A stretch of DNA of 38,029 bases from Sphingobacteriia bacterium (GTDB lineage: Bacteria > Bacteroidota > Bacteroidia > Bacteroidales > TTA-H9), in NCBI GenBank assembly GCA_021286705.1, contig JAJTBW010000013.1, positions 1-38,029 of the forward strand, in the 5' to 3' direction. The position numbers were made by a program, and so were the translations under genes. Numbering within the stretch: the stretch's first letter is position 1; the number at the start of each line of letters is the position of its first letter. Below, in pieces: positions 429-28,517 of this stretch. The notes below the pieces were generated by a model that worked only from the letters and a program-made list of their open reading frames with translations, made no database searches and was not told the DNA's origin.

Positions 429-1016
429 ATGTATAAACAACTAAAAAATTACGTAGGAGTCGGGTTATTGACGATCGGGTTATTATCTCTCAGTGCTTGT
501 GGAGGTTCAAAAAGTAGTACGAAAGTCACCCCTCCAAATGATGAGGTAGAGGTTACTGTATTATGCTCAGGACCTGAATATCAATCTGATGCTACTGCCT
601 TAAGATTCTCAGCTATCAGTTCAAGTATGGATCAGATGACGGCTAAAAAGAAAGCTCTTTCAGAAGCCAGAGCAGGATTAGCCGCCCAGATAGAGACTAC
701 CTTGAAAGGAGTTATTGATAATTATTTGAAATCAGCTGAGCATCAAAATCGTGAAGACCTTGAAAAGAGATATGAGGGGTTAACACGTGAGGTAATAAAC
801 CAGCAATTAACAGGTACAAGGACTATTTGTGAAAAGATGACCAAGACCAAAGAGGGCACCTATAAGTCATATGTTTGCATTGAACTCGGAGGTCCTGAAA
901 TTCTCAACTCTTTGAACAATCGCCTATCTAAGGATGAACAACTCAAAATCGACTATGATTATGAGAAGTTTAAGAAGACCTTCGAAGAAGAGATGAATAA
1001 AGCCGGAAACAACTAG
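429..1016 (+). CDS. LPP20-like outer-envelope lipoprotein
   Basis: A 195-residue lipoprotein. The N-terminus is a short basic stretch, a hydrophobic segment and a lipobox ending LSAC, with the lipidated Cys at residue 24, followed by a Gly/Ser-rich linker. The body has an Ala-rich helical stretch (about 70-100) in which Lys/Arg/Glu-rich turns alternate with Ala, then a segment with Cys residues near 138 and 153. This pattern, repeated in the protein at 7759-9633, resembles the LPP20 (Helicobacter Lpp20-type) fold. The C-terminus is a charged helix. The gene has its own promoter and a strong terminator, so it is probably monocistronic although it points into the next operon. No enzymatic motif is visible; a structural or accessory envelope role is inferred. 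Lipoprotein is sure, family moderately so. Confidence 0.85.
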   Translation: MYKQLKNYVGVGLLTIGLLSLSACGGSKSSTKVTPPNDEVEVTVLCSGPEYQSDATALRFSAISSSMDQMTAKKKALSEARAGLAAQIETTLKGVIDNYLKSAEHQNREDLEKRYEGLTREVINQQLTGTRTICEKMTKTKEGTYKSYVCIELGGPEILNSLNNRLSKDEQLKIDYDYEKFKKTFEEEMNKAGNN

Positions 1017-1041
1017 TCTTTATTCAAGTATTACAAAAAAG

Positions 1042-1071
1042 CTGTGGCACTTAAATAACTAAGTGCCACAG
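1042..1071 (+). terminator. Rho-independent terminator after the 429 lipoprotein
   Basis: A perfect 12-bp stem (CTGTGGCACTTA / TAAGTGCCACAG) with a 6-nt loop starts 26 nt after the stop codon. It is preceded by six A residues and followed by TTTATCATTT. It separates the lipoprotein from the following genes. Confidence 0.85.
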
Positions 1072-1208
1072 TTTATCATTTCACTTTTTTCAGTACACAG
1101 TTGACTTAATTTCAGCATTTCACATTTCTAACACTCTGTCTTAGGTTGCTTATTACCATATAAGCTTCATTGAATGAGACAACAAGACAACAAGGAATTT
1201 ATACTAAT

Positions 1209-2294
1209 ATGAGAAGCACTATTTCAGTTTTTCTCTTAATTCTTGTATTTTGCTCATCCACCCTACCCGGATCAGCAATGTGTAATGTTTTGTCTGCTAT
1301 TTACAATAGCCAGCTAGATCCTAATATATCAAAGGACACCGTCTCCTCAACTGAAGAACCTAATACCATATCTTACAACTCTTTTAAGAATAAGACAGTT
1401 GTTATCCCTGACTCTATTCTGTTTAGACTCAAAGGCAACAACGGAGAAGTATTTGGCATCTCAGATCCATATTTAGATTCATTGTATAGCTATAATCAAG
1501 CGTTATTCCGTGCATTTCTTATAAAATCACTTGCTAAATCAACTGTTATTAAACAAGTTGAAGATAACTTTCAACATCAAAATGATGATGAAAGCAGAAA
1601 AGCTAAAGGGGTATTTATTGAGATGTACTCAGTCGAAACCACTGTGCCATTGCCCCAAACAGTTAAAGTCAACTGGTCTGTTCGACTTTCGAGTGGAGAA
1701 CAAATAGTTGCTATAGATACTGTAGATCATCCATCTGATTCTGTTTTAAGTATCATCCCTGTCAAAATTCTTCTGTTCCACAAGGTCAATGAAGCAGGAA
1801 GCCTATATCAACTCTTTCGCCTAAAATATTGTATTAAGAACATCCCTTTTATTACAGGTTTGTTTACCTTCTCAGATTCACTTGATTTCTTATGGATTAA
1901 TAGAGATAAGAAACAGTTTGCTCAGGTTTTTTGCGAAAACCATCCCTCCTACACCTCTTCTAAGTTCTTCTATCGAAAGATGAGTGGATACTTTCGATCA
2001 GGTGAAACCACTATTTCAGGCATGAGTAGCCCAACTATCTTCGGTCTGTGGCCTGCCTTAATAAGCGGTGTTATATGGCAGTTGCCATTGCAGATGCAAT
2101 CTGACTCATTGGTGATTCGAGAAGTAGGAGACTTCTATAACTCGTTATCCATGAGACTCAATAGAACAATACAGTCATCAAGAGTGACTTTTAAAATAAA
2201 AGCAATTCATTTCTTGGGAGGGATTGTTATGGTTGAACTCAATCTTCCTCAACTCTTTGAAATTAAACCCCAGGATGCGATTCCAATTGAGTAA
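1209..2294 (+). CDS. Secreted protein of unknown function
   Basis: I do not recognise this family. The reading frame extends back to a TTG at 1170, but the ATG at 1209 is preferred because it gives a normal Sec signal peptide (a hydrophobic core within the first 22 residues, then a small-residue cleavage region near Gly-Ser-Ala). The mature part is about 335 residues, has no transmembrane segment apart from a mildly hydrophobic stretch near residues 280-295, and is rich in beta-type Ser/Thr segments. No catalytic motif is visible. It lies 66 bp upstream of the transglutaminase-like gene on the same strand and no terminator intervenes, so it is likely the first gene of the secreted-protein operon. 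No good TAnnTTTG box was found upstream. Confidence 0.75.
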   Translation: MRSTISVFLLILVFCSSTLPGSAMCNVLSAIYNSQLDPNISKDTVSSTEEPNTISYNSFKNKTVVIPDSILFRLKGNNGEVFGISDPYLDSLYSYNQALFRAFLIKSLAKSTVIKQVEDNFQHQNDDESRKAKGVFIEMYSVETTVPLPQTVKVNWSVRLSSGEQIVAIDTVDHPSDSVLSIIPVKILLFHKVNEAGSLYQLFRLKYCIKNIPFITGLFTFSDSLDFLWINRDKKQFAQVFCENHPSYTSSKFFYRKMSGYFRSGETTISGMSSPTIFGLWPALISGVIWQLPLQMQSDSLVIREVGDFYNSLSMRLNRTIQSSRVTFKIKAIHFLGGIVMVELNLPQLFEIKPQDAIPIE

Positions 2295-2360
2295 ATGATC
2301 AACAATAATAGAATATCATTGTTTTTCTTTAGTGAATAGTTAACTAGAACATAGCCTGAT

Positions 2361-5018
2361 ATGAAAAAACTGACATTAATATATAGTCTCGTTATTCTTT
2401 TCGGATTTTTAAGTTTAAGTCTTAAGGGTCAGACCTTCGAGCAATATAAAAAACAAGAGAAAGAGAAGTTTGATCAATTCAAGAAGGAGCAAGATGAATG
2501 GATCAAAAATCGAAAGAGAGAATTCAAAGAATATGTAGATAAAAAGGATAAAGAATTTAAGCAATTTCTGGAACAAAACTGGCGAAACTATAAGCCAGAG
2601 GCTCCAATTGTAAAGGTGCCGACTCCCAAACCTGAGGTTGTCCCTGAGTATACCCCGCCAAGTAAACCCACCACACCTCCTTCTGAGCTAATCCCAATTT
2701 CACCGGTTAAGCCAAAACCGATAATCGTAGATAATATCCCACAGATTGAACCGGTAGCCCGGCCTTTGCCTGATAAACCAGTAGGGGGAGCAATTTCTAA
2801 TATTTCCTATTTTGGAACAACCATTAGCTTTGAATATGACCCTGCTTTTAAAATTGCAGCACCAACTGCATCAAATAAACAAGCTGTAGCAGATTTCTGG
2901 TCAAGATGCAGCTCAACAGATTACGCCTGGCCATTAGATCAACTCCAAGAGCAAAAAGAGAAATTATCACTCAATGATTACGAGTATTATCTTCTGGTGA
3001 AAGCATTTAGTGATGACTTATATGGTAAAGATAGCCAAGGTAGTATCCTTATGAGTTGGTTTCTAATGTTGAGATCTGGCTATGGTATCAGGCTTGCCAA
3101 TAGTAATAATACTCTTTACCATCTATTACCAGCCTACCAGGATGTTTATGGCATTAGCTTCATTGAAGAGAATGGGAGAAAGCTCTATATCATGACTACC
3201 GATAATATCTCGCAGATTAATGCATATCCAGGTGATTACGAAGGAGCATCGAAGCCAATAGACTTTACCATTATCCAACCTGCTAAGCTGGGTAGAAACC
3301 TCTCCTATAGAAATATCTCATTCCCTTTCCAGGGGAAAACTCATTCTGTTAGAGTAGCTTATAACCCTGCTTTGATAAAACTATATGATGCATTTCCACA
3401 GCTTGAGATATCGACTTATTTCAATTCGGTTCCTTCATTGACTGCTAAAGAGAGCTTAATTGACGCACTTAAACCTCTCCTCGCTGATAAATCACAAAAA
3501 GATCAGGTGGAATTGCTTCTTAGCTTCGTCCAAAATGGATTTGAATACCAAACAGACCCGGAGCAATTTGGCAGAGAGAAATTCTTCTTTGCCGAGGAGG
3601 TACTATACTACCCTTACTGCGATTGTGAAGATCGTAGTGTCTTATTCTCTTACTTAGTAAGAAATCTTGTTGGACTAGAGGTGTGCGGCTTAGAATACCC
3701 GGGGCACATGGCTACAGCTGTGAATTTCGAGACATCGGTTAATGGAGACTATATAGAATATGGGAATAAACGATATATCATTTCAGACCCAACCTATATA
3801 GGTGCACCAATTGGACTATGTATGCCTCAGTTTAAAGAGGTATCTCCTAAAATCGTGCTCATTGATAAGCCTAACTTGATGCCAAGTGTTGACCCTCTTT
3901 GGCAACAATTGGCAGCATCAGGCTGCTACCCTGCCAGGGTTAATGGAGCAGAGACAGTTACTCTAGGTGATGGAGCTAAATACCTGATTGGCTTTAATAA
4001 TAAAGATGCCACATTCTTAGGTAAATCACTCGAAGTAAGCGAGAATGGAAACAGCTACTTCATCGGGAAAACAAATTCACAAAATCAGCCCGAGTGGGTG
4101 AAGACCAGCCTTTCAACTAAAGGGGTATTACCTGTACAAGTTGCTTTGGATGCAAGCGGCAACCTATATATAGCAGGTAGTTTTACAGGAACCCTCAAGG
4201 CTGATCCCTATGAAATTGTTGCCAGAAATGATAAAAGATCACTTTTCTTATGCGGATTGACATCAACTGGAAACATTAAATGGCTAAAAACTGTTTCATT
4301 AGATAGTCTTAATCAAGGAACGGGCATTGATTTCTCACTACAGTTTGATCTCAATGGACGATTAATAGGGACTCCCCGATTTGTTGAAGCTATTGTAGCA
4401 GAGAATGCGGGACTGTTCTTTGACAGTAATAACAAGGTCTTTACGCTAAACGGTCAAACAGGTCTGTTTTATCCGGAACAGCCCAAACAGAGTAGTGTTT
4501 CGTTTGCATCGGGGGCAAAAGCACTGACCCCAGAGGTAATTAAAGAAGAAAATGATGCTTTAATTTCTGGGAACACCGAAAGAGGCATTGCTGGTGTATT
4601 CGCTGTAGCTAATCTGGTTTGCAAAATGGGCTACACCTTTACAGGAATTGACGCCCAACGGGCTCTCGATAAATACAACCCAAACTTCAAACAACGCTGT
4701 TCTGAAACCTATAAGAACCTGGGAAAGATCACCTTCTTAAAAAACGCAGAGGGCGTGATTAGTATCCAGACTGATAAAGGTCAAGATATTAGTTTCGATA
4801 AAGTCAGAATAAAAAATGGATCTAAACTGACTATTTCTCAGGATAGAAATGGTGATATCCAGTTTAATATCCTTTCCGGCATAAAGGTCGGTAAAGCCAT
4901 TGTCTGGTATGACCTAAATTTCGTAAAAATGAGAAAGACAACAGGCGATCTTATCTTCGATTATGACTCCGACCATAGTCAAAAGCAATTAAATCTGAAA
5001 AAAGACATTTTAAATTGA
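2361..5018 (+). CDS. Secreted coiled-coil / transglutaminase-like / beta-propeller-repeat protein
   Basis: An 885-residue exported protein with an unusual domain order. Residues 1-23 are a Sec signal peptide ending Lys-Gly-Gln. Residues 24-80 are a Lys/Glu/Phe-rich heptad-like coiled coil. Residues 80-140 are a Pro-rich linker. The central region (about 140-500) carries a transglutaminase-like core: Cys420/Cys422 in YPYCDCEDRS, His449 in GHMATAV and Asp476 in SDPTY form the expected Cys-His-Asp order, with Cys422 the likelier nucleophile because it is followed by the Asp-Arg-Ser helix start. Residues about 540-690 resemble SBBP-type propeller repeats (GNLYIAGSFTGTL motif). The C-terminal 190 residues are unassigned. 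There is no T9SS sorting domain, so it is probably periplasmic. Substrate unknown; peptide hydrolysis or crosslinking is inferred only from the fold. It ends 14 bp before the next ATG. Confidence 0.8.
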   Translation: MKKLTLIYSLVILFGFLSLSLKGQTFEQYKKQEKEKFDQFKKEQDEWIKNRKREFKEYVDKKDKEFKQFLEQNWRNYKPEAPIVKVPTPKPEVVPEYTPPSKPTTPPSELIPISPVKPKPIIVDNIPQIEPVARPLPDKPVGGAISNISYFGTTISFEYDPAFKIAAPTASNKQAVADFWSRCSSTDYAWPLDQLQEQKEKLSLNDYEYYLLVKAFSDDLYGKDSQGSILMSWFLMLRSGYGIRLANSNNTLYHLLPAYQDVYGISFIEENGRKLYIMTTDNISQINAYPGDYEGASKPIDFTIIQPAKLGRNLSYRNISFPFQGKTHSVRVAYNPALIKLYDAFPQLEISTYFNSVPSLTAKESLIDALKPLLADKSQKDQVELLLSFVQNGFEYQTDPEQFGREKFFFAEEVLYYPYCDCEDRSVLFSYLVRNLVGLEVCGLEYPGHMATAVNFETSVNGDYIEYGNKRYIISDPTYIGAPIGLCMPQFKEVSPKIVLIDKPNLMPSVDPLWQQLAASGCYPARVNGAETVTLGDGAKYLIGFNNKDATFLGKSLEVSENGNSYFIGKTNSQNQPEWVKTSLSTKGVLPVQVALDASGNLYIAGSFTGTLKADPYEIVARNDKRSLFLCGLTSTGNIKWLKTVSLDSLNQGTGIDFSLQFDLNGRLIGTPRFVEAIVAENAGLFFDSNNKVFTLNGQTGLFYPEQPKQSSVSFASGAKALTPEVIKEENDALISGNTERGIAGVFAVANLVCKMGYTFTGIDAQRALDKYNPNFKQRCSETYKNLGKITFLKNAEGVISIQTDKGQDISFDKVRIKNGSKLTISQDRNGDIQFNILSGIKVGKAIVWYDLNFVKMRKTTGDLIFDYDSDHSQKQLNLKKDILN

Positions 5019-5032
5019 TAATATCAAACACA

Positions 5033-5794
5033 ATGAGAAAACTATTAATAATACTGCTCTTTATCCCAGCCGTTTTATTCGGCCAATACGATAAAATGTT
5101 AGACGAATTGGAGGATAGCCAAACTGAAACTCAAGATGGTAAATTAGCACTGCGGTTTTTTAATGCCGATAACGGCCAACCCGTCACTGATGCTACTATT
5201 AAAATTGAAGGCATTGGTGATTTCCAGACAGACATGCAGGGACGGGTGTTATTTGATATTCCGGCTGATGCCCGTTATGCCTGTTCCTTCTCTAAAGAGG
5301 GGTTTATAGAGGCCATATATCGTTTCGAAGTCATTGCAGGAACCATTTTTAATAATCGTTTCATGGTCTGCCCCATTTTGGATTTTGGATCACTTAGGGT
5401 CGTACTTTCTTGGAACAGAAAGCCTGCCGACCTTGACCTTCATCTTATAAAACAAGGGGAATACCACATCAGCTATCAGGACATGCATAAAAGCACTGAT
5501 GGGACAGGAAAACTTGATTTAGACGACAGAGATGGATTTGGGCCTGAAACAATCACCATTAAAGATCTGGATGAAAAGGCTGTATATACCTGTTATGTGA
5601 AGGACTATACTGATAAAGACCGTCCAAACAGTCGTAAACTATCAGAGTCAGGAGCAACTGTCCTTGTTTTCGGGAATAATGCCTTACTCAACACATTCGA
5701 AATTCAGAAAGATAAAAAGGGTACGAGTTGGATGGTGTTTGAAATAGTTAATGGAGTAGTTAAGCCAACATTAACTATAGGGAATCAATATTAA
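5033..5794 (+). CDS. Exported YfaP-like (DUF2135) protein with a carboxypeptidase-regulatory-like domain
   Basis: The start is set at ATG 5033, giving 253 residues with a clean signal peptide (MRKLLIILLFIPAVLFGQ). The longer frame uses a TTG at 5015 that overlaps the previous stop and places extra residues before the signal. About residues 35-105 resemble a beta-sandwich regulatory or CarboxypepD_reg-like domain (NGQPVTDATIKIEG, then a Gly turn and a strand with a KEGF motif). About 115-215 match the DUF2135/YfaP pattern: Trp-Asn, then DLDLHL, a short Thr-Asp-Gly loop, DLDDRDGFGPE and an ETITI strand. This Asp-rich pattern suggests metal binding (inference). It is embedded in the secreted-protein operon directly after the transglutaminase-like gene, and DUF2135 domains often accompany envelope or protease-inhibitor-like proteins. 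Confidence 0.8.
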   Translation: MRKLLIILLFIPAVLFGQYDKMLDELEDSQTETQDGKLALRFFNADNGQPVTDATIKIEGIGDFQTDMQGRVLFDIPADARYACSFSKEGFIEAIYRFEVIAGTIFNNRFMVCPILDFGSLRVVLSWNRKPADLDLHLIKQGEYHISYQDMHKSTDGTGKLDLDDRDGFGPETITIKDLDEKAVYTCYVKDYTDKDRPNSRKLSESGATVLVFGNNALLNTFEIQKDKKGTSWMVFEIVNGVVKPTLTIGNQY

Positions 5795-5875
5795 ACTGAC
5801 CGATATCTCTTAACTAAAGAATATTATACAACCAAAATAAACTGAGAAACATAAACTAAAACACATAGAGAAATT

Positions 5876-7759
5876 ATGAAACTTTTGAGATATACATTTA
5901 TTCTATTTTGTTTGGTCTTTACATCGAGCCTCTTTGCTCAGGAGTTCCAGACAAAAGAGATGACTCGAGTAACAAATGATCTTAAAGCTATTAAGGAGGA
6001 TGTTAAAGATGATAATGGTGAGTTAACAGCAATAGTAAAAGTTATAACCAATATTGACGGACTCTCTTTCGACTGTAAACTAGGCTTCGCAAAAGCTGCA
6101 GTAAAGGATTCACCTGGTGAGATATTACTATTTGTTTCTCCGAAAGAGCGAGAGATTAAAATTCAAAAGGAGGGGTTTCTTCCAAAAGTAATAGCACTTC
6201 CTGAACCAGCCGAATCTGGTGCCGTTTACAAAGTAGAAGTCTCAACCGACTTATCCGCAACTTTAGCCTCTGGACGTGGAACCATTGTTCTAACTACCGT
6301 TCCCGAAGGAGCATTTGTAGAGATCGATGGAATTGGAAATTCCAGGAAACAGACACCTGCCATATATAAAGATTACGAGGCTCGTCCTTTTAAATTTAAG
6401 CTCTCAAAGGATCGCTATGAAGCTAAAGATACCATTGTAAAATTAGTTGATCAAAAGAGCATAAGTGTAAATCTTAAACTCAAGCCTAAATGGGGTAAAC
6501 TTAAAATCAATGTTTTCCCTAAGAGTGCCACTATTAGAATTGATGGTAAAGTTCAGGGAACCGGAGATCTAGACCTAACCAATATTGAAGAGGCTTTGAA
6601 CATTGGCTCTTATGATATTGAAGCTTCACTAGAAGGCTATCATCCACAACGACAAACCGTTCAGATTACCAATAATAACATATCAGTCATTGATTTTAGA
6701 TTAGAGCCTATTAAAGGTTTTATAAAAATCACCTCTTCACCGAGTAATGCGGATGTCTACCTCAATGACTCACTCTACGGAAGAACTCCTCTTGAAAAAG
6801 AGGTGAGAATCGGAAGATACCAAGTTGTAGTCAGAAAAGAGGGATTTGCATCAAGTTCTGTAGTAGCTAATGTGATAGAGAATGAAATCACTAGCCAGTC
6901 TTTAACGTTAAATGAAAAGATCGATATTACTATTATTACTGAGCCAAAAGCTACCATAACTCTTAATGGGACTCTGTTGAGTGGTAAGACACCTCTTTTA
7001 GCGAAAGCTAATCCAGGAATAAACCATATTATAATTGAAAAAGAGGGCTATGAACGACTAGAAAGAGACTTCTCAATCAGAGAGAATCAAACAGAATATA
7101 AATTTGATCTAGAATTAAAGTCACAAGCCACCTATATCTCCACTTCACCAAGCGGAGTTTACGCCTACATTTCTGGCAAGGAAGAATCATTAGTCACCCC
7201 CGGACAGGTTTATCTAAAAAAAGGGGATTATGATATTACCTTGACTTCACCAGGCTATATGTCTAAGAAGACCACCCTATCAGTTGGGGATAAAGGGGAT
7301 AATTATTTCTACAGATTACGTCCTAGTAGTGTAATGTTTCTTGGGTTAAGTACCTCAGACGGTGGTATAGGAGGTAACCTAACTACATGGTCTGGGCACT
7401 TCACTTTCGTCATGGATATTCAATCCATTGAACAACGTGATGACGATCCGTACCCTGCCCCTGAGAAACAATCAGGTCTTCAAATGATGATAGCTATGGG
7501 CGTAAGAATCAATAGACCAATCCCGCTGAGTTTCCATGTTGGATATGGATTCAGAGGAATGGGTGAGGCTCCAACAGAGAGCTCTGATACTCAATTATAT
7601 GACCGTCAATTCTATTCACCAGTTATCGGGGCAACTGTGCCTATCTCTTTCGCTGGAGGAAGTTTTTGGCTTTACGGACAGATTAATTATTGGTTCCATA
7701 CAGAGATTAAAGACGAATCAAGCGTAAATCTTGTTGGTGGTATCGGATTTAAACTCTAA
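5876..7759 (+). CDS. PEGA-repeat protein with barrel-like C-terminus
   Basis: 627 residues. A Sec signal peptide (1-21, ending LFAQ) is followed by an N-terminal beta domain (about 30-125) and five PEGA-type beta-sandwich repeats at roughly 135-202, 207-277, 281-345, 349-414 and 418-482. Typical signatures are TTVPEGAFVEIDG, SSPSNADVYLNDSLYGRTP, GRYQVVVRKEGF and GDYDITLTSPGY. The last 140 residues (485-627) alternate aromatic and small residues and end GGIGFKL, like a small outer-membrane beta-barrel or anchor strand set. PEGA domains are carbohydrate or protein binding modules in other bacteria; here a surface- or peptidoglycan-facing binding role is inferred. The stop codon overlaps the next start (TAATG), indicating translational coupling to the LPP20-like protein. 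Confidence 0.85.
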   Translation: MKLLRYTFILFCLVFTSSLFAQEFQTKEMTRVTNDLKAIKEDVKDDNGELTAIVKVITNIDGLSFDCKLGFAKAAVKDSPGEILLFVSPKEREIKIQKEGFLPKVIALPEPAESGAVYKVEVSTDLSATLASGRGTIVLTTVPEGAFVEIDGIGNSRKQTPAIYKDYEARPFKFKLSKDRYEAKDTIVKLVDQKSISVNLKLKPKWGKLKINVFPKSATIRIDGKVQGTGDLDLTNIEEALNIGSYDIEASLEGYHPQRQTVQITNNNISVIDFRLEPIKGFIKITSSPSNADVYLNDSLYGRTPLEKEVRIGRYQVVVRKEGFASSSVVANVIENEITSQSLTLNEKIDITIITEPKATITLNGTLLSGKTPLLAKANPGINHIIIEKEGYERLERDFSIRENQTEYKFDLELKSQATYISTSPSGVYAYISGKEESLVTPGQVYLKKGDYDITLTSPGYMSKKTTLSVGDKGDNYFYRLRPSSVMFLGLSTSDGGIGGNLTTWSGHFTFVMDIQSIEQRDDDPYPAPEKQSGLQMMIAMGVRINRPIPLSFHVGYGFRGMGEAPTESSDTQLYDRQFYSPVIGATVPISFAGGSFWLYGQINYWFHTEIKDESSVNLVGGIGFKL

Positions 7760-9633
7760 TGACAGAATATCATTTAAAAATGAATACGAGATCAACAATA
7801 AACTATAAGATATTTGGATTTCTTATTACAATCATACTGTATTGTAATGTACTATCAGCCCAATCAGTTGATGAGATTAAGAATTCCAGAGACTATATTT
7901 ATGGCATTGGTCAAGGGAAAACATATCAGGAAGCTGATGCTCAAGCATTAGATCTTTTAGTAAGTCAGATATCAGTAAGGGTAGAGAGTAACTTCAGTAA
8001 TGTTGTCAGTGAAAAAGGAGATTCTCTTAGCAATTACTCTCAATCGGTGGTTCGAACCTATTCCAATGTCTCAATTACACAGAACAGGAGCAAGTTAATA
8101 AGTGATGAACCCGGGAACTTTGTTGTAATGAGATATTTGGCTGTAGCTGATCTTAATGAAATGTTCAATAGTCGAAAGAGCAAACTTCTTGACTATGTTC
8201 AGGAAGGAGTAAAAGCAGAGAATCAACTAAGGCTCTCTGATGCACTTCGGAACTACTATTGGGCTTTTGTGATGCTTCGCTCACATCCCGATGTTAATAC
8301 TATTCGGGGTAATCTTCCCGACAGGCCAAACGCCATTCTTCTCTCTGCGATACCTGATGAGATTGACAAGATCTTCAAAGGGATTACTTTTGAAGTAATT
8401 AGTAGAAAAGAAGATCCAGTATCAAAGGCTCACATGGTAACCTTAGCCGTCACTTATATGGGCAAGGCGGTTCAGAATTTTGACTTCCAATACTGGACAG
8501 GCGATTCATATAGCGTTCTTACCGGTGTAAATGATGGCCTAACAGAAATAGAGCTAAATAAAGGAACAGCGTCAACGCTAACCAATGTTAAAGCTATTGG
8601 AGAGTATCAAAATCTGAATAAATCACGATGGGATGCCGAGCTTAATAATCTTTTGAAGACTACTGCGCTTCCAACATTCCCTTCATCCAAAGTTATTATC
8701 AAGCTTGGAGATGCTCCTGTGGCTATTCAGAAATCCACAGTTCAGGAGACTAATAGTGTTTCAACACTTGCCAGAGCGGATATACCTCTCCCAAAAGCAG
8801 AGGAATCAACCGCCTATACCTCTATGATGAATACGGTTGTAAAAAGCATCAATGCAGGTAACCCTGACTTAGCTCGTAATATCTTTACACAAGAGGGTTT
8901 TGACCTCTTTAAAAGGCTCTTTCAGAAGGGTCAGATGAGGGTTCTAGAATCATCTATGGATCTTACAGTCTATAAATCATCTGATGGTTTTGAAGTTAGA
9001 AACATGCCGGTGAAATTCAGCTTTAGGAACAGCGACAAACACTTTATAGAGTACTTGAACTTCGATCTTACCAAAGAAAAGAAGATAGATCATCTTGCAT
9101 TCTCTATTGGAAATACTGCACTTAATGATATAGCCAATCGCCCGGGAACCTTTGGATCCCCGGAAGAAAAGATGTATCTGATAAATTTCCTTGAAGACTT
9201 CAAAACTGCGTATTCCCTCAGAAGAATTGACTTTCTAAAATCTGTCTTCGACGACAATGCACTTATTATTGTTGGTAGACTCCTTCAGGATGGAGGAAAT
9301 ATTGAGAAAATGTATAACACTTTAGGCAAAAAGGTGGAATATATAAAGTTGAGCAAGACCGAATATTTGGATCGGGTTCAAAAAGCCTTCGCAGCTAATG
9401 AATTCGTAAACCTTCAATTCGAGTCAACTAAAGTCATTAAAAAGAATGGAGAGAAAATATACGGCATACAACTAGAACAATACTACACCTCTAGCAACTA
9501 CGCTGATAAAGGATACCTCTTTCTAATGGTCGATTTAAAGGATTCTTTGAAACCTAAAATATACGTTAGAACCTGGCAACCTGAAAAAAACCCAGACGGA
9601 TCGGTATTTAACATGACCGACTTTAACTTATAA
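7759..9633 (+). CDS. LPP20-like exported protein, translationally coupled to the PEGA protein
   Basis: 624 residues from the overlapping ATG at 7759; a second ATG at 7780 would give a more standard signal peptide, so the exact start is open. The hydrophobic signal ends LSAQS near residue 35. Residues about 45-130 (YIYGIGQGKTYQEADAQAL, then a VVRTYSNVSI strand) match the LPP20 pattern of a Gly-rich strand followed by an Ala-rich helix. Residues 145-190 are helical. The rest comprises mixed alpha/beta domains, including two related stretches near 360-440 and 480-600 that look like NTF2-like or cone-shaped domains (inference from helix and strand order). No catalytic motif is visible. Pairing with a PEGA protein suggests the two form one complex. 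The downstream gene follows after 42 bp. Confidence 0.8.
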   Translation: MTEYHLKMNTRSTINYKIFGFLITIILYCNVLSAQSVDEIKNSRDYIYGIGQGKTYQEADAQALDLLVSQISVRVESNFSNVVSEKGDSLSNYSQSVVRTYSNVSITQNRSKLISDEPGNFVVMRYLAVADLNEMFNSRKSKLLDYVQEGVKAENQLRLSDALRNYYWAFVMLRSHPDVNTIRGNLPDRPNAILLSAIPDEIDKIFKGITFEVISRKEDPVSKAHMVTLAVTYMGKAVQNFDFQYWTGDSYSVLTGVNDGLTEIELNKGTASTLTNVKAIGEYQNLNKSRWDAELNNLLKTTALPTFPSSKVIIKLGDAPVAIQKSTVQETNSVSTLARADIPLPKAEESTAYTSMMNTVVKSINAGNPDLARNIFTQEGFDLFKRLFQKGQMRVLESSMDLTVYKSSDGFEVRNMPVKFSFRNSDKHFIEYLNFDLTKEKKIDHLAFSIGNTALNDIANRPGTFGSPEEKMYLINFLEDFKTAYSLRRIDFLKSVFDDNALIIVGRLLQDGGNIEKMYNTLGKKVEYIKLSKTEYLDRVQKAFAANEFVNLQFESTKVIKKNGEKIYGIQLEQYYTSSNYADKGYLFLMVDLKDSLKPKIYVRTWQPEKNPDGSVFNMTDFNL

Positions 9634-9675
9634 GCCTTAAAATAACACTGAAGCAAAAAATAAAAACACAATACA

Positions 9676-10332
9676 ATGAATAGAGTTTTAAGATATCTCT
9701 TCCTATTTCTAGTTGTCGTCACCACAAGTTGCAGCGATGAAGAGGGACAATATGCAAATCTTACCGGATCAGTAACCTTTTGGACGAAGAACATTGGAAC
9801 TAGCAACCCTGTAGTTACTATCAATGGCGTTGATGCAACTATCTCGCAAAACTATTCTTCAACTCCTAGTTGCGGTGCTTCCGGATGCGCCACTTTCGCT
9901 CTTGCTCCCGGCACCTATCAATACACAGCTTTTGGTAACCAATCTTGGTCTGGTTATATAACAATCTCTTCTGAGGGCGATTGCGTCACTCAAGAACTTA
10001 TTAATAACACAAGTTCCTATGGAAATGCAACATTCTGGACTCAAACCGATCTCGGGTGCGGTGGCATAATCGTATACATTAATGGAACCAATGGAACTAT
10101 TTCAAGCTACTACTCTTCAAAACCATCATGCGGAAGTTATGGTTGTGCTAACTTCAGTCTACCTGTAGGCACTTATCCATTTACTGCCTCATGTAATACC
10201 TATAACTGGGAAGGTGAGATAGAAATTACTTCGGGTGATTGCTCTACTATGAGATTATACGTAAGTGACAAATCTTCAGATAACCAATCTGAAACGCCTA
10301 CCTCAAAAGATGAATGCAGCAATAGTAAGTAG
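9676..10332 (+). CDS. Lipoprotein with two Cys-containing tandem domains
   Basis: 218 residues. A lipobox (VVTTSC) puts the lipidated Cys at about residue 19. The mature part is two copies of a roughly 75-residue unit (about 30-105 and 108-183). Both share a T/AFWT opening, an ING strand, TIS-x-x-YSS-x-PSCG, GCA-x-F, a LAPGTY/LPVGTY turn, a W-x-G-x-I-x-I strand and a GDC end. Each copy keeps three Cys at equivalent places, so conserved disulfides are likely; the second copy has two extra Cys. The GTY-type turn resembles a PEGA-like or carbohydrate-binding beta-sandwich. The tail is Ser/Asp/Glu-rich and low complexity. It is the last gene of the operon, followed by a strong terminator. Function unknown. 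Confidence 0.85.
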   Translation: MNRVLRYLFLFLVVVTTSCSDEEGQYANLTGSVTFWTKNIGTSNPVVTINGVDATISQNYSSTPSCGASGCATFALAPGTYQYTAFGNQSWSGYITISSEGDCVTQELINNTSSYGNATFWTQTDLGCGGIIVYINGTNGTISSYYSSKPSCGSYGCANFSLPVGTYPFTASCNTYNWEGEIEITSGDCSTMRLYVSDKSSDNQSETPTSKDECSNSK

Positions 10333-10344
10333 TCTTGCAAAATT

Positions 10345-10380
10345 AAAAGAGAAGGGGTCTAAATAGGCTCCTTCTCTTTT
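10345..10380. terminator. Bidirectional terminator between convergent operons
   Basis: An 11-bp stem AAAAGAGAAGG / CCTTCTCTTTT starts 13 nt after the stop of the two-repeat lipoprotein. The A-rich 5' side and T-rich 3' side make it usable from both strands. It ends the plus-strand operon and lies 87 nt beyond the stop of xseB on the minus strand. Confidence 0.85.
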
Positions 10381-10467
10381 AATAATTAATTATAGAAAAT
10401 TCACAAGGCCTTAAAGATTATACCAAACCCGTATATAACTTTAAAACCAAATAATCTCAGGGTAATT

Positions 10468-10665
10468 CTAGCCCTCTTTGTTACCAGTCAGGTTCTCGAC
10501 CTCATTCTTTGTCAATGTCAGCTGAGCCTTACAGTAATTTAATAACTCAGAGGCTCGCTTTACTTGACTCGTAAGGTTCTCAAGATTATTATCAGGATGT
10601 TCCATTTTTTTAATTAAAGCCTCAACTTCAGCAATAGCCTCAGAATAGGTCATGTTCTCTTCCAT
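10468..10665 (-). CDS. xseB: Exodeoxyribonuclease VII small subunit
   Basis: A 65-residue all-helical protein with the XseB pattern: TYSEAIAEVEALIKKME, then a short Asp/Asn turn (PDNNLENL), then a second helix carrying SELLNYCKAQL. XseB binds XseA in a multimeric nuclease that degrades single-stranded DNA. The internal Met5 codon at 10653 overlaps the flippase stop in an ATGA junction, so the translated start may be at 10653 (61 residues) instead of 10665. No xseA is visible in the window; the gene sits at the end of a glycan operon, so its neighbours say nothing about DNA repair. Confidence 0.88.
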   Translation of the reverse strand: MEENMTYSEAIAEVEALIKKMEHPDNNLENLTSQVKRASELLNYCKAQLTLTKNEVENLTGNKEG

Positions 10666-11939
10666 ATCTTTTTGAATTTATCTTTTAACTCCCTATAATC
10701 ACTTATATCAATCAGGTAAAAATTGATGGATTTCTGATACAATTTACCAAAGACTGCCCCTTGATAGAGAAATGAACTTATATAAGCCAACGAAGCAACA
10801 ATAGCCGCACCATAATGTTGAAATGATGCTACCAGAGGCCACACAAACGTTAGAGTAATGATAAAGCCTAACAGTGAACCCTTAAAATTGTAGACTGGTA
10901 TTCCACTACCAGAAAAATGATGGCTAAATATCATTGAAAGTGATAAAGCCAAGACTCCGGGAGCAAGAATAAGCATTATTGGCTTAATCCCTATGAATTT
11001 TGATGATAAAAGCATCAAAAACCAACTCTCAGGTATTATCAGGATAACAGCTAAAGCCATCAATGTTAATGAACCGGAAATCCAAAGCATCTTCTTGGTG
11101 TAAAACGTATTTTTCTCCTCATTATGATCATTTGAGATATGGCCAAATTGAACCAAGGCAATACTTTGGGTTATCATTCTTATCCCTTCCGTTAATTGGA
11201 CAGCTGCATTGTAGATACCCAGAGCAGAAGAACCCAACAATCCATTAATAAAATAATAGCTTATTCTTCTACTCCCAAGCTGAGTAAGGTTCGCCAATTG
11301 TGTTGCTGAGGTATAACTAAAAATCTCTTTGTTTAAATTACCAATTGAATATTGAAAAGCGGGTAAAGCAAACCTTCTCGAGAAAAAGGCAGCGACTAAC
11401 CACCCAACGATATATGAAAGATATAGAGAGTATATATAATGCTGTAGTTTGGCAGATCCTGACCACCATATCAGTAAGATAAACGTCGGAGGAAGAACCA
11501 TATATTGAAGGATAACACTAATGTTATACTGTTTAATCTTCTCCAACCCTAAGAGGATATTCTGATGGGTGGCGCAAAAAGAGGCTAAGACTGCAACTAT
11601 AATAATATGTGGTGCAGTTCCAGCCGGAACAATGATTTCATATAACACCGGAAACTTAGAGAGAACCAGACCGATTAAAGTGGCCAGACCTGCAATTAGA
11701 ACGGTCCACATATACGACCTAATTAACAATGCTCGTTGGGGATACCTTGAGGCAAAGTAGACCATACCTCCTGTCACCAAATCGGTAGCTAGTGCAAGGA
11801 TGGTCACGGCCAATAGAAATAAAGCAACCCTACCGTACTGCTCAGGACCTAATAAGCTAGCCCCAGCAACAACCATAAATAATGTGGCAGCAGCACCAAT
11901 TAACCTCGCAAATGCTGTAAAAAGTAGTTTCTTAATCAT
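10650..11939 (-). CDS. Wzx/RfbX-type polysaccharide flippase
   Basis: 429 residues with about 12 hydrophobic transmembrane segments and short basic loops. The N-terminus (FTAFARLIGAAATL, then LLGPEQYGRVAL) is typical of the oligosaccharide flippase branch of the MOP/MATE superfamily. It would move a lipid-linked sugar unit across the inner membrane. It overlaps the upstream glycosyltransferase by 8 bp and the downstream xseB, so the three genes are co-translated. Substrate not predictable from sequence. Confidence 0.88.
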   Translation of the reverse strand: MIKKLLFTAFARLIGAAATLFMVVAGASLLGPEQYGRVALFLLAVTILALATDLVTGGMVYFASRYPQRALLIRSYMWTVLIAGLATLIGLVLSKFPVLYEIIVPAGTAPHIIIVAVLASFCATHQNILLGLEKIKQYNISVILQYMVLPPTFILLIWWSGSAKLQHYIYSLYLSYIVGWLVAAFFSRRFALPAFQYSIGNLNKEIFSYTSATQLANLTQLGSRRISYYFINGLLGSSALGIYNAAVQLTEGIRMITQSIALVQFGHISNDHNEEKNTFYTKKMLWISGSLTLMALAVILIIPESWFLMLLSSKFIGIKPIMLILAPGVLALSLSMIFSHHFSGSGIPVYNFKGSLLGFIITLTFVWPLVASFQHYGAAIVASLAYISSFLYQGAVFGKLYQKSINFYLIDISDYRELKDKFKKIWKRT

Positions 11940-24442: not shown

Positions 24443-25411
24443 TTAGTCATTTCTTATATTGACTAGTCTTATGGGTGCAATAGCTGGTAATAATCCAGCT
24501 TTTAAGATGATTCTTTGGCCTTTATCAGATGATACAAATGAGATAAACCCATCTGCTAATCCTAAATGAGGATCAGTAGAGATCATCCAGATATTACGAA
24601 TTAACGGGTATTGCTCAAGAGCCATATAAGCTTGAAAAGGCTTATAACTCCGGTCATTTGGATGTGGTCTAATTGCACAAACTCTTATCTGCTTTGAAAA
24701 AGAGAGTGCCGTTGAATCATCCTTATCACTTATCCAACTAACCCCTATAAGGCCAATTGCATTTTCATGTTTTGAAACATATCTAATAACTGCTGTATCA
24801 GAACGCAATGCGTGTGCATACGGGCTTAAGCTATCTGTACCTACTATACTATCTAGCATAAACCTTACTATCCCGCTCTGAGGGTGATCAAACACGATAT
24901 CAATTTTCTGATCTTTACTTCTATTAGATTGTCCTCCCCATGTGATTAATTTACCGGAAAGGATATCTTTAATCTGTTGAAGATCCAGAACTGAATCACT
25001 ATTTTTTGGGTTAATGATAAGAGCTACGGCATCTCTTCCAACCAAGACCTCTTTAGGAAAGATCTTCTTTTGCTCAAAGTACTTCTTCTCATCATAAGAT
25101 AATCTTCGGCTGGCAATAATAAGTTTTGCACTATCTGCAAAGAGTTTCTTAAAGGCATCTGATTCAGGAAGAAACTTAACGTTAATATGCGCATTTGCAT
25201 AGATAGCATGAAAAACATCTAATTCTGCCTGAATAACAGGAAGAAACGTTGCATCTGCCAAAGCATTAATACTACCAGTTGTAGGGGTATCAGTCGCCCT
25301 GTCAGGATTGGACTGACAGGACGTACTGAAACTAAACAACAGAATAAATAAAACCAGAGCATTGCTCCATTTCTTTTTTACAATTAACTCCACCTTTTTG
25401 AATACTATCAT
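24443..25411 (-). CDS. PstS-like substrate-binding lipoprotein
   Basis: 322 residues. An N-terminal signal with a lipobox ending FSTSC puts the lipidated Cys near residue 33. The body matches the PBP-like/PstS fold: an early strand and helix with ADATFLPVIQAELDVF, a FVSSDKGQRIILKAG C-terminal segment, LIIASRRLSYDEK, and GRDAVALIINPKN followed by LQQIKDILSGKLITW, a hallmark of PstS-type phosphate-binding proteins. No pstC, pstA or pstB is present. It starts in an ATGA overlap with the small membrane gene, so it is translated with the TonB operon. A sensing or ligand-presenting role is more likely than phosphate ABC transport (inference). Confidence 0.88.
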   Translation of the reverse strand: MIVFKKVELIVKKKWSNALVLFILLFSFSTSCQSNPDRATDTPTTGSINALADATFLPVIQAELDVFHAIYANAHINVKFLPESDAFKKLFADSAKLIIASRRLSYDEKKYFEQKKIFPKEVLVGRDAVALIINPKNSDSVLDLQQIKDILSGKLITWGGQSNRSKDQKIDIVFDHPQSGIVRFMLDSIVGTDSLSPYAHALRSDTAVIRYVSKHENAIGLIGVSWISDKDDSTALSFSKQIRVCAIRPHPNDRSYKPFQAYMALEQYPLIRNIWMISTDPHLGLADGFISFVSSDKGQRIILKAGLLPAIAPIRLVNIRND

Positions 25412-25590
25412 TTCCTAGATTCTTTAATTGTCCGAAATAAGCGCCAACTACCATAAAGTAAAAGCAGAGAGCCCAATCCGTAGCGTTGCCATGCTGAACT
25501 TAATTGAAATCCATAACAAAGTATCGCTAATCCTACTAAAAAGTAGAAACCAGGCATAATCCATGAGGAAATGAAATAGATATATTTCAT
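25408..25590 (-). CDS. Small two-helix membrane protein in the TonB operon
   Basis: 60 residues with two hydrophobic helices (about 3-27 and 36-50), a Trp/Arg-rich loop between them and a basic tail. It starts 6 bp after the tonB stop and its stop overlaps the next start (ATGA), which strongly supports translation. No family recognised. Confidence 0.8.
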   Translation of the reverse strand: MKYIYFISSWIMPGFYFLVGLAILCYGFQLSSAWQRYGLGSLLLLYGSWRLFRTIKESRK

Positions 25591-25596
25591 TTTAGT

Positions 25597-26415
25597 TTAG
25601 TTAAGCGTAAACTTAATAGGTAAGTTAAATTGAACAGGAACAGCCTTTCCAGCTTGTTTACCTGGAATCCATGCAGGCATAAGTTTAACAACACGAACTG
25701 CCTCCTCATCACAACCACCACCTATACCACGTAAAACCTTAATATTAGAGATTCTACCATTTTTATCGATGACAAATGTGAGAAAAACAGTACCTGTGAT
25801 ACCACTTTCACGAGCAATTGATGGGTATTTAATATTGTCCCTAAGGAATTTAACACGAGCTTCATCTCCACCAGGATAATCTGGCATCTGTTCAACCACC
25901 TTAAATGGTTCTTGGGTTTCCTCCACAACTTGTGATTGTTCCTGTTGAAGGTCGGCCATATCAACCGCATCAGCATCACTGCTATTTCCTTTTACATCAT
26001 TTACTGAAACAGATAACTTTGAATCAGTTACCTCCTCTTGTGTTTTCATTAAATCCTCATCTTTTACTTCTGAGTCATCTTTAATAACTGGAGGAGTAAA
26101 CTTGATGGTGCTTTTTATTTTCTCAGGAGGAGCCTGCTCTATAACGGGTTGTTCTTGCTCCTTCGCTTTATTCTTTTCAAGATCGATGTTTGCTAAGGCT
26201 GTTACCTCTACATTAACCTCTTTCTTTTCAGGAATAATGCTTTTTATAAGACCTGGAGCTAAAATTGCAAAAACAAAGAATACTATAGTGATTATCAATG
26301 CCACTCTGTGTCTACGTGATGAGTCACGACGAATAACAAAAGCACCGTAATCTTTGAATCTTTGAGCAAATACAATATCACACCAAGCATCAGAGAATAT
26401 ATTCGTTTTAGCCAT
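25597..26415 (-). CDS. tonB: TonB-family energy transducer
   Basis: 272 residues. A cytoplasmic N-terminus, one transmembrane helix (about 36-58), a long Glu/Lys/Pro/Val-rich periplasmic linker (60-175) and a TonB C-terminal domain (about 180-272). The domain has the Bacteroidota hallmarks: YPGGDEARVKFLRDNIKYP, GTVFLTFVIDKNGRISNIKV, CDEEAVRVVKLMPAWIPGK and VPVQFNLPIKF. It transmits the proton-motive force from ExbB-ExbD to outer-membrane receptors. Fourth gene of the operon, 22 bp after the second exbD. Confidence 0.95.
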   Translation of the reverse strand: MAKTNIFSDAWCDIVFAQRFKDYGAFVIRRDSSRRHRVALIITIVFFVFAILAPGLIKSIIPEKKEVNVEVTALANIDLEKNKAKEQEQPVIEQAPPEKIKSTIKFTPPVIKDDSEVKDEDLMKTQEEVTDSKLSVSVNDVKGNSSDADAVDMADLQQEQSQVVEETQEPFKVVEQMPDYPGGDEARVKFLRDNIKYPSIARESGITGTVFLTFVIDKNGRISNIKVLRGIGGGCDEEAVRVVKLMPAWIPGKQAGKAVPVQFNLPIKFTLN

Positions 26416-26437
26416 TACTTCTAATATTTAAGTGTGA

Positions 26438-27052
26438 TTATATATTTAATTTAGAATAGAGATCTTTATCAGGTCCTTCCAAATTTACGATAGCATATCT
26501 ACTGATACTGCAAATATTCATTTCATCCAAAGCATCCACAAGATTTTTATATGATGCGTCATCAGAAGCCATGATTCTTACAACAGGTGCATTCTTACCT
26601 GCCTTTATCTTTGAGAGCTGCTCCTTAAATAAGTCATCGTTCATCTTGGTTTTAGCCTTTTCCCTTTTCAGGTCTTCAACTTGCTTAACAATATCATAGT
26701 TCTTTTGAAGTAGAACCTTTCGAAGACCCGTTGCTGAATAATCAGTAGGAATTAATTGTGCTCCTTCAGTTTTTCCAAAGTAGTAATAGATTTTATCTTT
26801 ACCCCCGAGAATAACTGTAATAGCTTGAGAAGCTTTTGCTACAGTTTGATTATCCTCTTGCACATCCTTTGATGAAGGCATTGTAATCTCCATCGTTTGA
26901 GGTTTAATTAATGTGGTGGCTAACATGAAAAATGTTATCAACAAAAATCCAAGATCCACCATGGGTGTAAAGTCTATTCGGGTGGCTAGCTTTTTAGACC
27001 TTTTCTTGCCCCCCTTTTTATGTGATCCTTGATCCTGACTTACGTCTGCCAT
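26438..27052 (-). CDS. exbD: ExbD/TolR-family biopolymer transport protein (second copy)
   Basis: 204 residues. A basic N-terminus (GGKKRSKKLATRIDFTPMVDLGFLLITFFML) carries the conserved Asp in the membrane helix (VDLGFLLITFF) needed for proton coupling. The periplasmic part holds an ExbD core with an ASDDASYKNLVDALDEM helix and an insertion of about 50 residues around 95-150. 28 bp after the first ExbD gene. The two ExbD proteins differ clearly, so they are not a recent duplication. Confidence 0.93.
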   Translation of the reverse strand: MADVSQDQGSHKKGGKKRSKKLATRIDFTPMVDLGFLLITFFMLATTLIKPQTMEITMPSSKDVQEDNQTVAKASQAITVILGGKDKIYYYFGKTEGAQLIPTDYSATGLRKVLLQKNYDIVKQVEDLKREKAKTKMNDDLFKEQLSKIKAGKNAPVVRIMASDDASYKNLVDALDEMNICSISRYAIVNLEGPDKDLYSKLNI

Positions 27053-27080
27053 TTTGTACTGCGTTTAAGATTTACTTGGA

Positions 27081-27677
27081 TTACTCTCCTTCGAGACGAG
27101 TAATGAGGTTATACCTATTCTCATCTAACTCCTGAAGGGTTTTCATTACATTCTTCACCACCAAATAAGGTGTCTTTTCGTCAGCCTTTATGGCAATTCT
27201 TAGATCAGGATTGACCTCTCTGGCAGCTTTTACCCATGATAATAACTGATTATTAGTTGAGTCAGTGGGTATACCAAGATTATTCTGAGGATTATCCCGA
27301 GTTTCGGCAGGTAGAGCTAAATAGGCTGGTAGCATCTCTAAAGGATTGCCATAAACATCTAGAAGCGTATACTTCTTAATCTGATCAGGTGTAAATGACA
27401 ATTTATAGAGGTCTGCCATCTTGCTCAACAACTCACGTCTTTTCTCTTGCCCGTCAATACCGAAGAACACTCTTCCCGAGGGATCAATCAGCATTGTCAT
27501 CACATTAACTTCAGGGATCTTTATCTCAGAAATGGAAGAAGGTGTTGAGACCAAAATAGGCTCCTTCTTTGTAAAGTTTGAAGTCAACATAAAGAATGTC
27601 AAGAGAAGAAAAGCCACGTCTGTCATTGCAGTCATGTCTACCCATGTACTCTTTCTGGGTATTTTTACTTTTGGCAT
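27081..27677 (-). CDS. exbD: ExbD/TolR-family biopolymer transport protein (first copy)
   Basis: 198 residues. N-terminal KIPRKSTWVDMTAMTDVAFLLLTFFML contains the helix and the conserved Asp of ExbD (MTDVAFLLLTFF). The periplasmic domain ends with a LRIAIKADEKTPYLVVKNVMKTLQE segment typical of the family. It has an insertion around 90-140. 27 bp after exbB. Confidence 0.93.
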   Translation of the reverse strand: MPKVKIPRKSTWVDMTAMTDVAFLLLTFFMLTSNFTKKEPILVSTPSSISEIKIPEVNVMTMLIDPSGRVFFGIDGQEKRRELLSKMADLYKLSFTPDQIKKYTLLDVYGNPLEMLPAYLALPAETRDNPQNNLGIPTDSTNNQLLSWVKAAREVNPDLRIAIKADEKTPYLVVKNVMKTLQELDENRYNLITRLEGE

Positions 27678-27704
27678 TGTCTCTTCTTTAAACGATTGAT
27701 ACTA

Positions 27705-28517
27705 TTAAGCGTGCTTTTCATTATATGACTGAACTAAGCTAACACCAGCTTCATCAATACTGTAAGTGATTTTATCAATGCGAGTAGTAAACACGTTATA
27801 AAAAATCAATGCTAAAGCAGCAGTTCCAATACCAAAGGCAGTATTAATAAGCGCTTCAGAGATACCCGCTGCCAAAGCTACGGAATCAGGTGCTCCTGCA
27901 TTTGCCAAAGCCGAGAATGCCCTGATCATCCCTAGAACAGTTCCCAACAGACCCATCAATGTAGCTAGTGAAGTAATGGTAGCAAGTATAACTAAGTTTT
28001 GCTCTAAACCTGGTAATTCTAATGAGGTTGCTTCCTCAATTTCTTTCTGTAAAGAAGCAATCTTTTGATCCTTATTCATACTCTGCTCTTTCTCTAACGT
28101 GCGATATTTTTTAAGTACTGACCGTACCACACTTGCAACTGAGCCTTTTTGTCTATCACATGCTACCAAAGCAGCTTCAAAATCATTATTGGCTAAATGC
28201 ATCTTGACTTCCTGTACAAAAGAACTGACTGCATGCTTACCAGTAGCTTTTTGGATAGCAATGAAACGTTCTACAACAAATGTCAATACTGTCAAAAGTA
28301 AAGTCATGATTACTGGAACAATGAATCCCCCTTTGTAAATAATCCCAAAATAATTCCCTGGTAATGCAGCGTTTTCAGATGACCCTCCCTGAAAATTACT
28401 TGGATTCCCCATGATAAAATGAAATACCCCTAACGCAGTTAAAAATGCAACAGGAATAACTAAAGATGAAAAATTGACTTTAATCTTCTTGTGTGAAGCT
28501 GATGAATTGTTTTTCAT
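27705..28517 (-). CDS. exbB: MotA/TolQ/ExbB proton channel family protein
   Basis: 270 residues. Four hydrophobic segments (about 17-35, 58-80, 160-185 and 205-230) with the family core ATITSLATLMGLLGTVLGMI and, further on, ALINTAFGIGTAALALIFYN. It forms the pentameric proton channel with ExbD that powers TonB. First gene of the operon. The intergenic region upstream holds a 21-bp palindrome but no clear promoter box. Confidence 0.95.
   Translation of the reverse strand: MKNNSSASHKKIKVNFSSLVIPVAFLTALGVFHFIMGNPSNFQGGSSENAALPGNYFGIIYKGGFIVPVIMTLLLTVLTFVVERFIAIQKATGKHAVSSFVQEVKMHLANNDFEAALVACDRQKGSVASVVRSVLKKYRTLEKEQSMNKDQKIASLQKEIEEATSLELPGLEQNLVILATITSLATLMGLLGTVLGMIRAFSALANAGAPDSVALAAGISEALINTAFGIGTAALALIFYNVFTTRIDKITYSIDEAGVSLVQSYNEKHA

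Follow-up and report, generated by a model that had tools for sequence, protein, structure and literature searches.

A candidate envelope-processing system of Bacteroidota with an exported transglutaminase-fold enzyme and LPP20-type proteins

Close to one end of a contig from a Sphingobacteriia bacterium of the Bacteroidales (GTDB group TTA-H9; contig JAJTBW010000013.1, assembly GCA_021286705.1) lie seven genes, here called g1 to g7, among them the gene of a predicted transglutaminase-fold enzyme (g3). The window analysed is this whole stretch of 38,029 nucleotides. An earlier note, written by a model from the letters alone, had proposed that the seven genes make up one envelope system, and its account of the locus proved accurate in nearly every detail: the seven open reading frames are all present where it placed them (Table 1), the gaps are of 66, 14 and 81 bp, a TAATG overlap and 42 bp, each product has by inspection a signal peptide at its N-terminus, g1 and g7 carry the lipoboxes of lipoproteins, and a strong terminator stands at the end of the cluster. 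The genes are also co-directional, as it had said, although all seven – rather than six – lie on the + strand.

Table 1. Genes, protein segments and terminator hairpins of the g1–g7 locus (window coordinates)
Feature	Position	Strand	Description
g1	429..1016	+	195-aa lipoprotein, lipobox LSAC, Cys24; LPP20-like fold family
Hairpin, two-way terminator, g1–g2 gap	1039..1074		−23.4 kcal/mol, z −7.5
g2	about 1209..2294	+	exported 362-aa protein, divergent, possibly LPP20-like
g3	2361..5018	+	exported 885-aa protein, predicted transglutaminase-fold enzyme
g3 residues 24–72, post-signal helical module	2430..2576	+	
g3 catalytic core	3624..3788	+	Cys422, His449, Asp476
g3 residues about 528–690	3942..4430	+	SBBP/CylK-like beta-propeller segment
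g4	5033..5794	+	exported 253-aa protein; CarboxypepD_reg-like domain, then DUF2135-like domain
g5	5876..7759	+	exported PEGA-array protein, five PEGA repeats
g5 tail	7325..7756	+	predicted beta-barrel-like, from alternating strands and the end GGIGFKL
g6	7759..9633	+	exported; LPP20 domain N-terminal, NTF2-like domain C-terminal
g7	9676..10332	+	218-aa lipoprotein, lipobox TTSC, two internal repeats
Operon-end terminator hairpin	10342..10383	+	19 pairs, −26.2 kcal/mol, z −7.4

The g3 product of the window is named by no Pfam or NCBIfam model and has no PF01841 (Transglut_core) match at E ≤ 1; since the transglutaminase and DUF2135 calls in the Pfam scan of the window were both sub-threshold, evidence from profiles or structures was needed. 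The putative catalytic triad is near-invariant over 68 homologues (Cys422 in 66/68, His449 in 67/68, Asp476 in 67/67), and in an alignment of 23 homologues (A1) the same three residues, together with Glu423–Asp424–Arg425, are all invariant. In the AlphaFold2 (AF2) model, a signal peptide and a long helix (residues 26–72) are followed by N-terminal domain, catalytic core, partial propeller and C-terminal domain; the solved fold closest to the core is that of the periplasmic protease LapG (4fgp/4fgo; Foldseek TMt 0.43–0.50, prob 0.98–1.00, 21% identity), and the propeller segment matches CylK both in a PDB search (E 9e-20) and with Foldseek, the SBBP match being weak. A homologue of 401 aa that is divergent and belongs to another lineage (L165) exceeds the Transglut_core cut-off (26.5 against 23 bits), and the g3 core aligns to PF01841 proteins, with a weak family-level hhalign score against Transglut_core (Prob 41%). 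Because of the triad, the LapG-matching core of the model and the homologue above the cut-off, there is good reason to regard g3 as an exported enzyme of the transglutaminase superfamily with an intact Cys-His-Asp triad. The transglutaminase-like or papain-like fold claimed in the earlier note thus holds by triad, model and LapG match, though not by the Pfam-level score of the window protein. Membership of the LapG/BTLCP family itself was rejected, as PF06035 is unmatched and absent from the phylum sample, and LapG is kept as an analogy.

Homologues of g3 occur in 57 of 247 sampled Bacteroidales genomes (E < 1e-20) and in 41 of 345 sampled Bacteroidota genomes (E ≤ 1e-30), with additional ones outside the phylum in Calditrichaceae and LCP-89; a related locus is found in Parabacteroides. 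They fall into three length classes: long (at least 650 aa, with the propeller), middle (about 500 aa) and short (about 400 aa, lacking the propeller segment). Counting neighbours within about 8 kb, the 48 loci with long forms have g1 at 25, g2 at 22, g4 at 12 and g5 at 8, and the 40 loci with middle forms have g1 at 15, g5 at 9 and g6 at 8. Two neighbourhoods are conserved, g1-g2-g3(-g4) and g6-g5; g2 stands between g1 and g3 at about 20 loci, g6 copies away from g3 mostly adjoin g5, and three loci from other taxonomic orders (L145, L146 and L149) keep g1, on the opposite strand, followed by g3, g6 and g5. Several short homologues of other lineages (L164–L171) lie beside housekeeping-looking genes (lspA-like, tatD-like), without partners.

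The genomes tell a similar story by presence and divergence. All 19 genomes with a full-length g6 also have g3 (19/19; hypergeometric P 5e-14), even though only 9 of 22 copies are adjacent to it. Co-occurrence with g3 is weaker for g2 (19/28 genomes, P 8e-8), g4 (8/9, P 4e-5) and g1 (37/63, P 2e-13); g1-like lipoproteins are present in 26 of 63 genomes without g3, and g1 therefore belongs to a broader family. Sequence divergence tracks that of g3 in all five partners (Mantel r: g1 0.74, g2 0.93, g4 0.81, g5 0.77, g6 0.70). Judged by these counts, the co-location of g1–g6 is not a matter of chance. The gene set is a pair of separable modules – g1-g2-g3-g4 and g5-g6 – rather than a fixed machine. 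The earlier note had suggested comparing gene order across Bacteroidales by profile search, and had named scattered genes or matches to characterised, unrelated systems as what would speak against it: the neighbourhoods are conserved, the genes co-occur beyond chance, and none of them could be matched to a system already characterised. The idea of a seven-gene system stands for g1–g6, by linkage and co-occurrence, and fails for the lineage-specific g7; that of a single machine survives as a set of linked genes and not as a fixed unit, a physical complex being conjecture. Elsewhere in the source genome there are another g5-g6 pair, located where a contig ends (G000:C239, L208), and a more distant g6 relative (G000:C46, L209).

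The partners of g3 are known to different depths. In the g1 family the lipobox Cys24 is invariant (26/26 homologues), 15 of 26 members have an LPP20 Pfam match (best 7.8e-5), the family profile matches the solved Helicobacter pylori Lpp20 (5ok8, E 0.003), and a related neighbouring lipoprotein of the short lineage (L145) exceeds the LPP20 cut-off (34.1 against 25.9 bits); g1 of the window alone has no LPP20 match in the Pfam scan, and the assignment is one at family level. The LPP20 domain of g6 (PF02169, residues 40–106; E 3.5e-5) scores 24.6 bits, just under the cut-off of 25.9, and matches a solved LPP20 structure (4kzs, E 2.4e-5); the g6 orthologue in L145 exceeds the cut-off of the NTF2-like Cds6_C (28 against 27 bits), and a separate profile of the g6 C-terminus, which retrieved nothing beyond the set of the LPP20 profile, was left unused. 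By profile, then, g1 and g6 are of LPP20 type. The g1 profile also picks up members of the g2 family (best 4e-7); g2 has neither a Pfam nor a PDB match, its AF2 model (pTM 0.68) gave no significant or interpretable fold match, and it is possibly LPP20-like. The LPP20-like proteins of the earlier note are accordingly g1, at family level, and g6, with g2 linked to them by its cross-match to g1.

In g5, the PEGA array that the earlier note had described is clear (PF08308, E 1.3e-44, 150 bits, five stretches) and is the sole Pfam match above cut-off within the cluster; the barrel-like tail, which differs among family members, is predicted from sequence. The note's YfaP-like protein, g4, is a distant homologue: its C-terminal domain aligns to DUF2135 domains (hhalign 95.9%, E 5.6e-9), and its identity as YfaP/DUF2135 at Pfam level was rejected, with a PF09906 match in 0 of 14 members. 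As for g7, only fragmentary matches were found, in 5 other genomes out of 149 and never at g3 loci, and it was rejected as a system member. An SDEE tract follows its lipid cysteine and resembles the signals for surface export in Bacteroidota lipoproteins, and there is a sub-threshold match to the second domain of GldM.

A link to the cell wall comes from a neighbour (C22) that matches solved MltC-type lytic transglycosylases (E 2e-41). It lies directly upstream of g3 at four loci (L083, at 9998–11170, L085, L089 and L097) and near g3 in L152 and L155; in L211 it adjoins g6/g5 and a caspase-like gene. Immediately behind the signal peptide, this transglycosylase carries the helical module found at the same place in g3 (TFEEYKKQ..EF..FK), with a score reached by 0 of 1000 shuffles. 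A FecR-like protein adjoining g3 on a Calditrichaceae contig (L102:9329–10120) has the module too, in this case C-terminally, and among 1623 open reading frames of all loci the convincing carriers of the module are only g3, these transglycosylases and the FecR-like protein. The neighbour was rejected as a g3 paralogue, the N-terminal module being all that it has in common with g3. It is here that the glycan or peptidoglycan binding supposed in the earlier note finds its support, which is indirect.

Secreted caspases of family C14 are a further recurrent neighbour: 9 lie within 12 kb of g3 against 0.7 expected, and 14 of 16 have His-Cys dyad motifs, mostly with signal peptides. Such a module stands beside g3 in L042, L043, L069, L103, L104 and L182, with CARDB-C14 (L042), DUF5683-like, DUF4384 and fn3-like lipoproteins, and in the nearest g3-bearing relative (G020), a member of the same family, a DUF4384/FlgO-like protein, a DUF6770 protein and a WD40-caspase come before g1. 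As the source genome has no C14 member at E ≤ 1e-5, a caspase was rejected as a required part.

Taken together, these observations lead us to a tentative reading, which we favour while giving it somewhat less than an even chance: the cluster would be a Bacteroidota envelope-processing system in which LPP20 lipoproteins and the PEGA protein provide the docking site for a LapG-like cysteine protease that processes an envelope protein during murein remodelling, the chemistry being a prediction. In such a system g1 and g6, whose folds are of LPP20/SHS2 type and akin to those of Lpp20, FlgP and FlgT, would build a scaffold at the outer membrane, on its periplasmic side, and the g5 PEGA array with its barrel-like tail may span from the outer membrane to the periplasm. 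The enzyme g3 and the lytic transglycosylase would dock on one partner through their common helical module, and docked g3 would act as a LapG-like cysteine protease (less likely as a crosslinking transamidase), maturing or releasing an envelope protein where murein opens; genomes with a secreted C14 caspase beside g3 would gain a second processing step. Such an enzyme at such a place is suggested because the module and the transglycosylase indicate the cell wall, the lipoproteins and LPP20 folds the outer membrane, and the LapG-like core proteolysis. We infer the chemistry of g3 as well as its substrate and the order of the steps, and g1–g6 as a single physical complex is likewise conjectural. 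A bolder version – a Bacteroidota envelope machine with related forms in Calditrichota and LCP-89 that recruits the transglutaminase-fold protease and the MltC-type murein transglycosylase to an LPP20-PEGA scaffold through one helical docking module common to both, coupling wall opening to envelope-protein cleavage, with a secreted caspase in some lineages – strikes us as doubtful.

Several results weigh against the favoured reading. The LapG match has a Foldseek E of 0.02–0.07 and comes from a multidomain model of pLDDT 77.5; PF06035 is unmatched at E ≤ 1 in the 23 homologues, and LapG-family genes were found in 0 of 118 Bacteroidota genomes. Both the transglycosylase (with no MltC-type enzyme in the window) and the caspase (with none in the source genome at E ≤ 1e-5) lie near g3 in a minority of loci. 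The 18 loci with short g3 forms lack linked partners, and the enzyme can therefore exist alone. The co-occurrence statistics, finally, ignore kinship and were obtained on fragmented contigs with query profiles seeded from g3 loci.

The evidence can be read in other ways. The enzyme might act on peptidoglycan itself, its core hydrolysing or crosslinking stem peptides alongside the transglycosylase while the LPP20 and PEGA proteins serve as anchors; the shared helical module of the two enzymes fits this, as does the ability of C-H-D triad enzymes to act on amides, but the nearest solved fold, LapG, cleaves protein, and g3 yielded a match neither to a known murein hydrolase family nor to a murein-binding domain, so that direct murein action seems unlikely. 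Still less probable is genuine transamidation, by which g3 would crosslink envelope proteins, such as LPP20 or PEGA oligomers, to one another or to the wall. The alignment of the core to PF01841 proteins and the divergent homologue above the Transglut_core cut-off speak for it, yet the family-level alignment is weak and the bacterial proteins with this fold include many proteases, such as LapG (PMC4359373) and HvyA, whose annotation is that of a transglutaminase-like cysteine protease (PMC4241560).

The system as such may also be questioned. That g1–g6 are independent envelope-stress or housekeeping genes under a common regulator would agree with the variable gene content, the separation of g1–g4 from g5-g6, the terminator of g1 and the solitary shortest g3 forms; the restriction of g6 to g3-bearing genomes even where the two are unlinked, and the protein module shared by g3 and the neighbouring transglycosylase, make this about as unlikely as direct murein action. 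The fold common to FlgP, FlgT and Lpp20, some of which form outer-membrane rings in flagella (PMC12222027), together with the barrel-like tail of g5, could instead point to an assembly for secretion or surface display, its outer-membrane ring formed by g1, g2 and g6 and its cargo trimmed by g3, but the neighbourhood holds no pore, ATPase or motor gene and no common cargo was found across loci, and of all the readings this is the one we find hardest to credit.

In the window itself, g2–g7 (1209–10332) form a tight six-gene run with a strong hairpin at its end; the spacing between g1 and g2 is about 190 bp and contains a second strong hairpin, and since this is a two-way terminator, g1 probably has its own transcript. 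The window being a complete contig, the sequence upstream of g1 is cut off, and upstream partners may be missing. A −7 site precedes g1 (394–401); it is only suggestive, because the Bacteroidota −7 promoter motif is no commoner in the window than by chance (39 against 43). Eleven-base tandem repeats (CCTCTCCCTAT and AGAGGATATTG types) occupy positions 1–190 at the contig end, just upstream of g1, and a run of TonB-ExbB-ExbD type, which also includes a phosphate-binding-like protein and a tetratricopeptide repeat (TPR) protein, lies on the − strand at 24446–28517. At other loci, five genes in a row (OMP-like barrel, small protein, DUF6175, unknown and LPP20-like) adjoin g1-g2-g3 (L077–L080, L086 and L035), and in L149 the g3 cluster has a CHASE2-adenylate cyclase and an SH3/M48 peptidase protein close by, with look-alikes of both, by N-terminal sequence only, in L151.

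With this analysis, a widespread unnamed enzyme family with a complete active site gains defined partners and a connection with cell-wall remodelling that can be put to the test, and the common helical module becomes a marker for finding further parts of the system. If the proposal is right, a LapG-like g3 would show how Bacteroidota could control envelope proteins by periplasmic proteolysis, which would be informative because LapG is undetected in the phylum; and as Parabacteroides have a related locus, the system is testable in a gut commensal.

No description of the enzyme family, the gene set or the helical module was found in the searched libraries or literature, in which few subscription papers are covered. 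The likeness to known systems is drawn here component by component. Like LapG and other BTLCP proteins (Peptidase_C93), g3 is exported and has a transglutaminase-type fold and a Cys-His-Asp triad, but its partners differ and the family profile is unmatched; LapD/c-di-GMP control was not seen near g3, with no search aimed at LapD. With the Transglut_core superfamily it shares the core motif and triad, unlike which it has an extra helical module, an N-terminal domain and a propeller. The C22 gene beside g3 is MltC-type, but differs from MltC in its g3-type N-terminal helical module. The LPP20/FlgP/FlgT family (PF02169, SHS2-like fold) is matched by g1 and g6 both at the profile level and among solved Lpp20-family chains, whereas g6 has an extra NTF2-like domain and g2 is weakly related; flagellar genes were not seen at the examined loci. 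Escherichia coli YfaP resembles g4 in the DUF2135-like C-terminal domain, though all 14 g4 members fall under the Pfam threshold, and bacterial C14 caspases (orthocaspases) with LPP20/DUF4384 neighbours recur beside g3 in relatives, but no C14 was found in the source genome at E ≤ 1e-5. All component domain superfamilies are already known, and the closest known kind is a periplasmic transglutaminase-fold enzyme with lipoprotein partners; there is a real chance that the system is more distinct than that.

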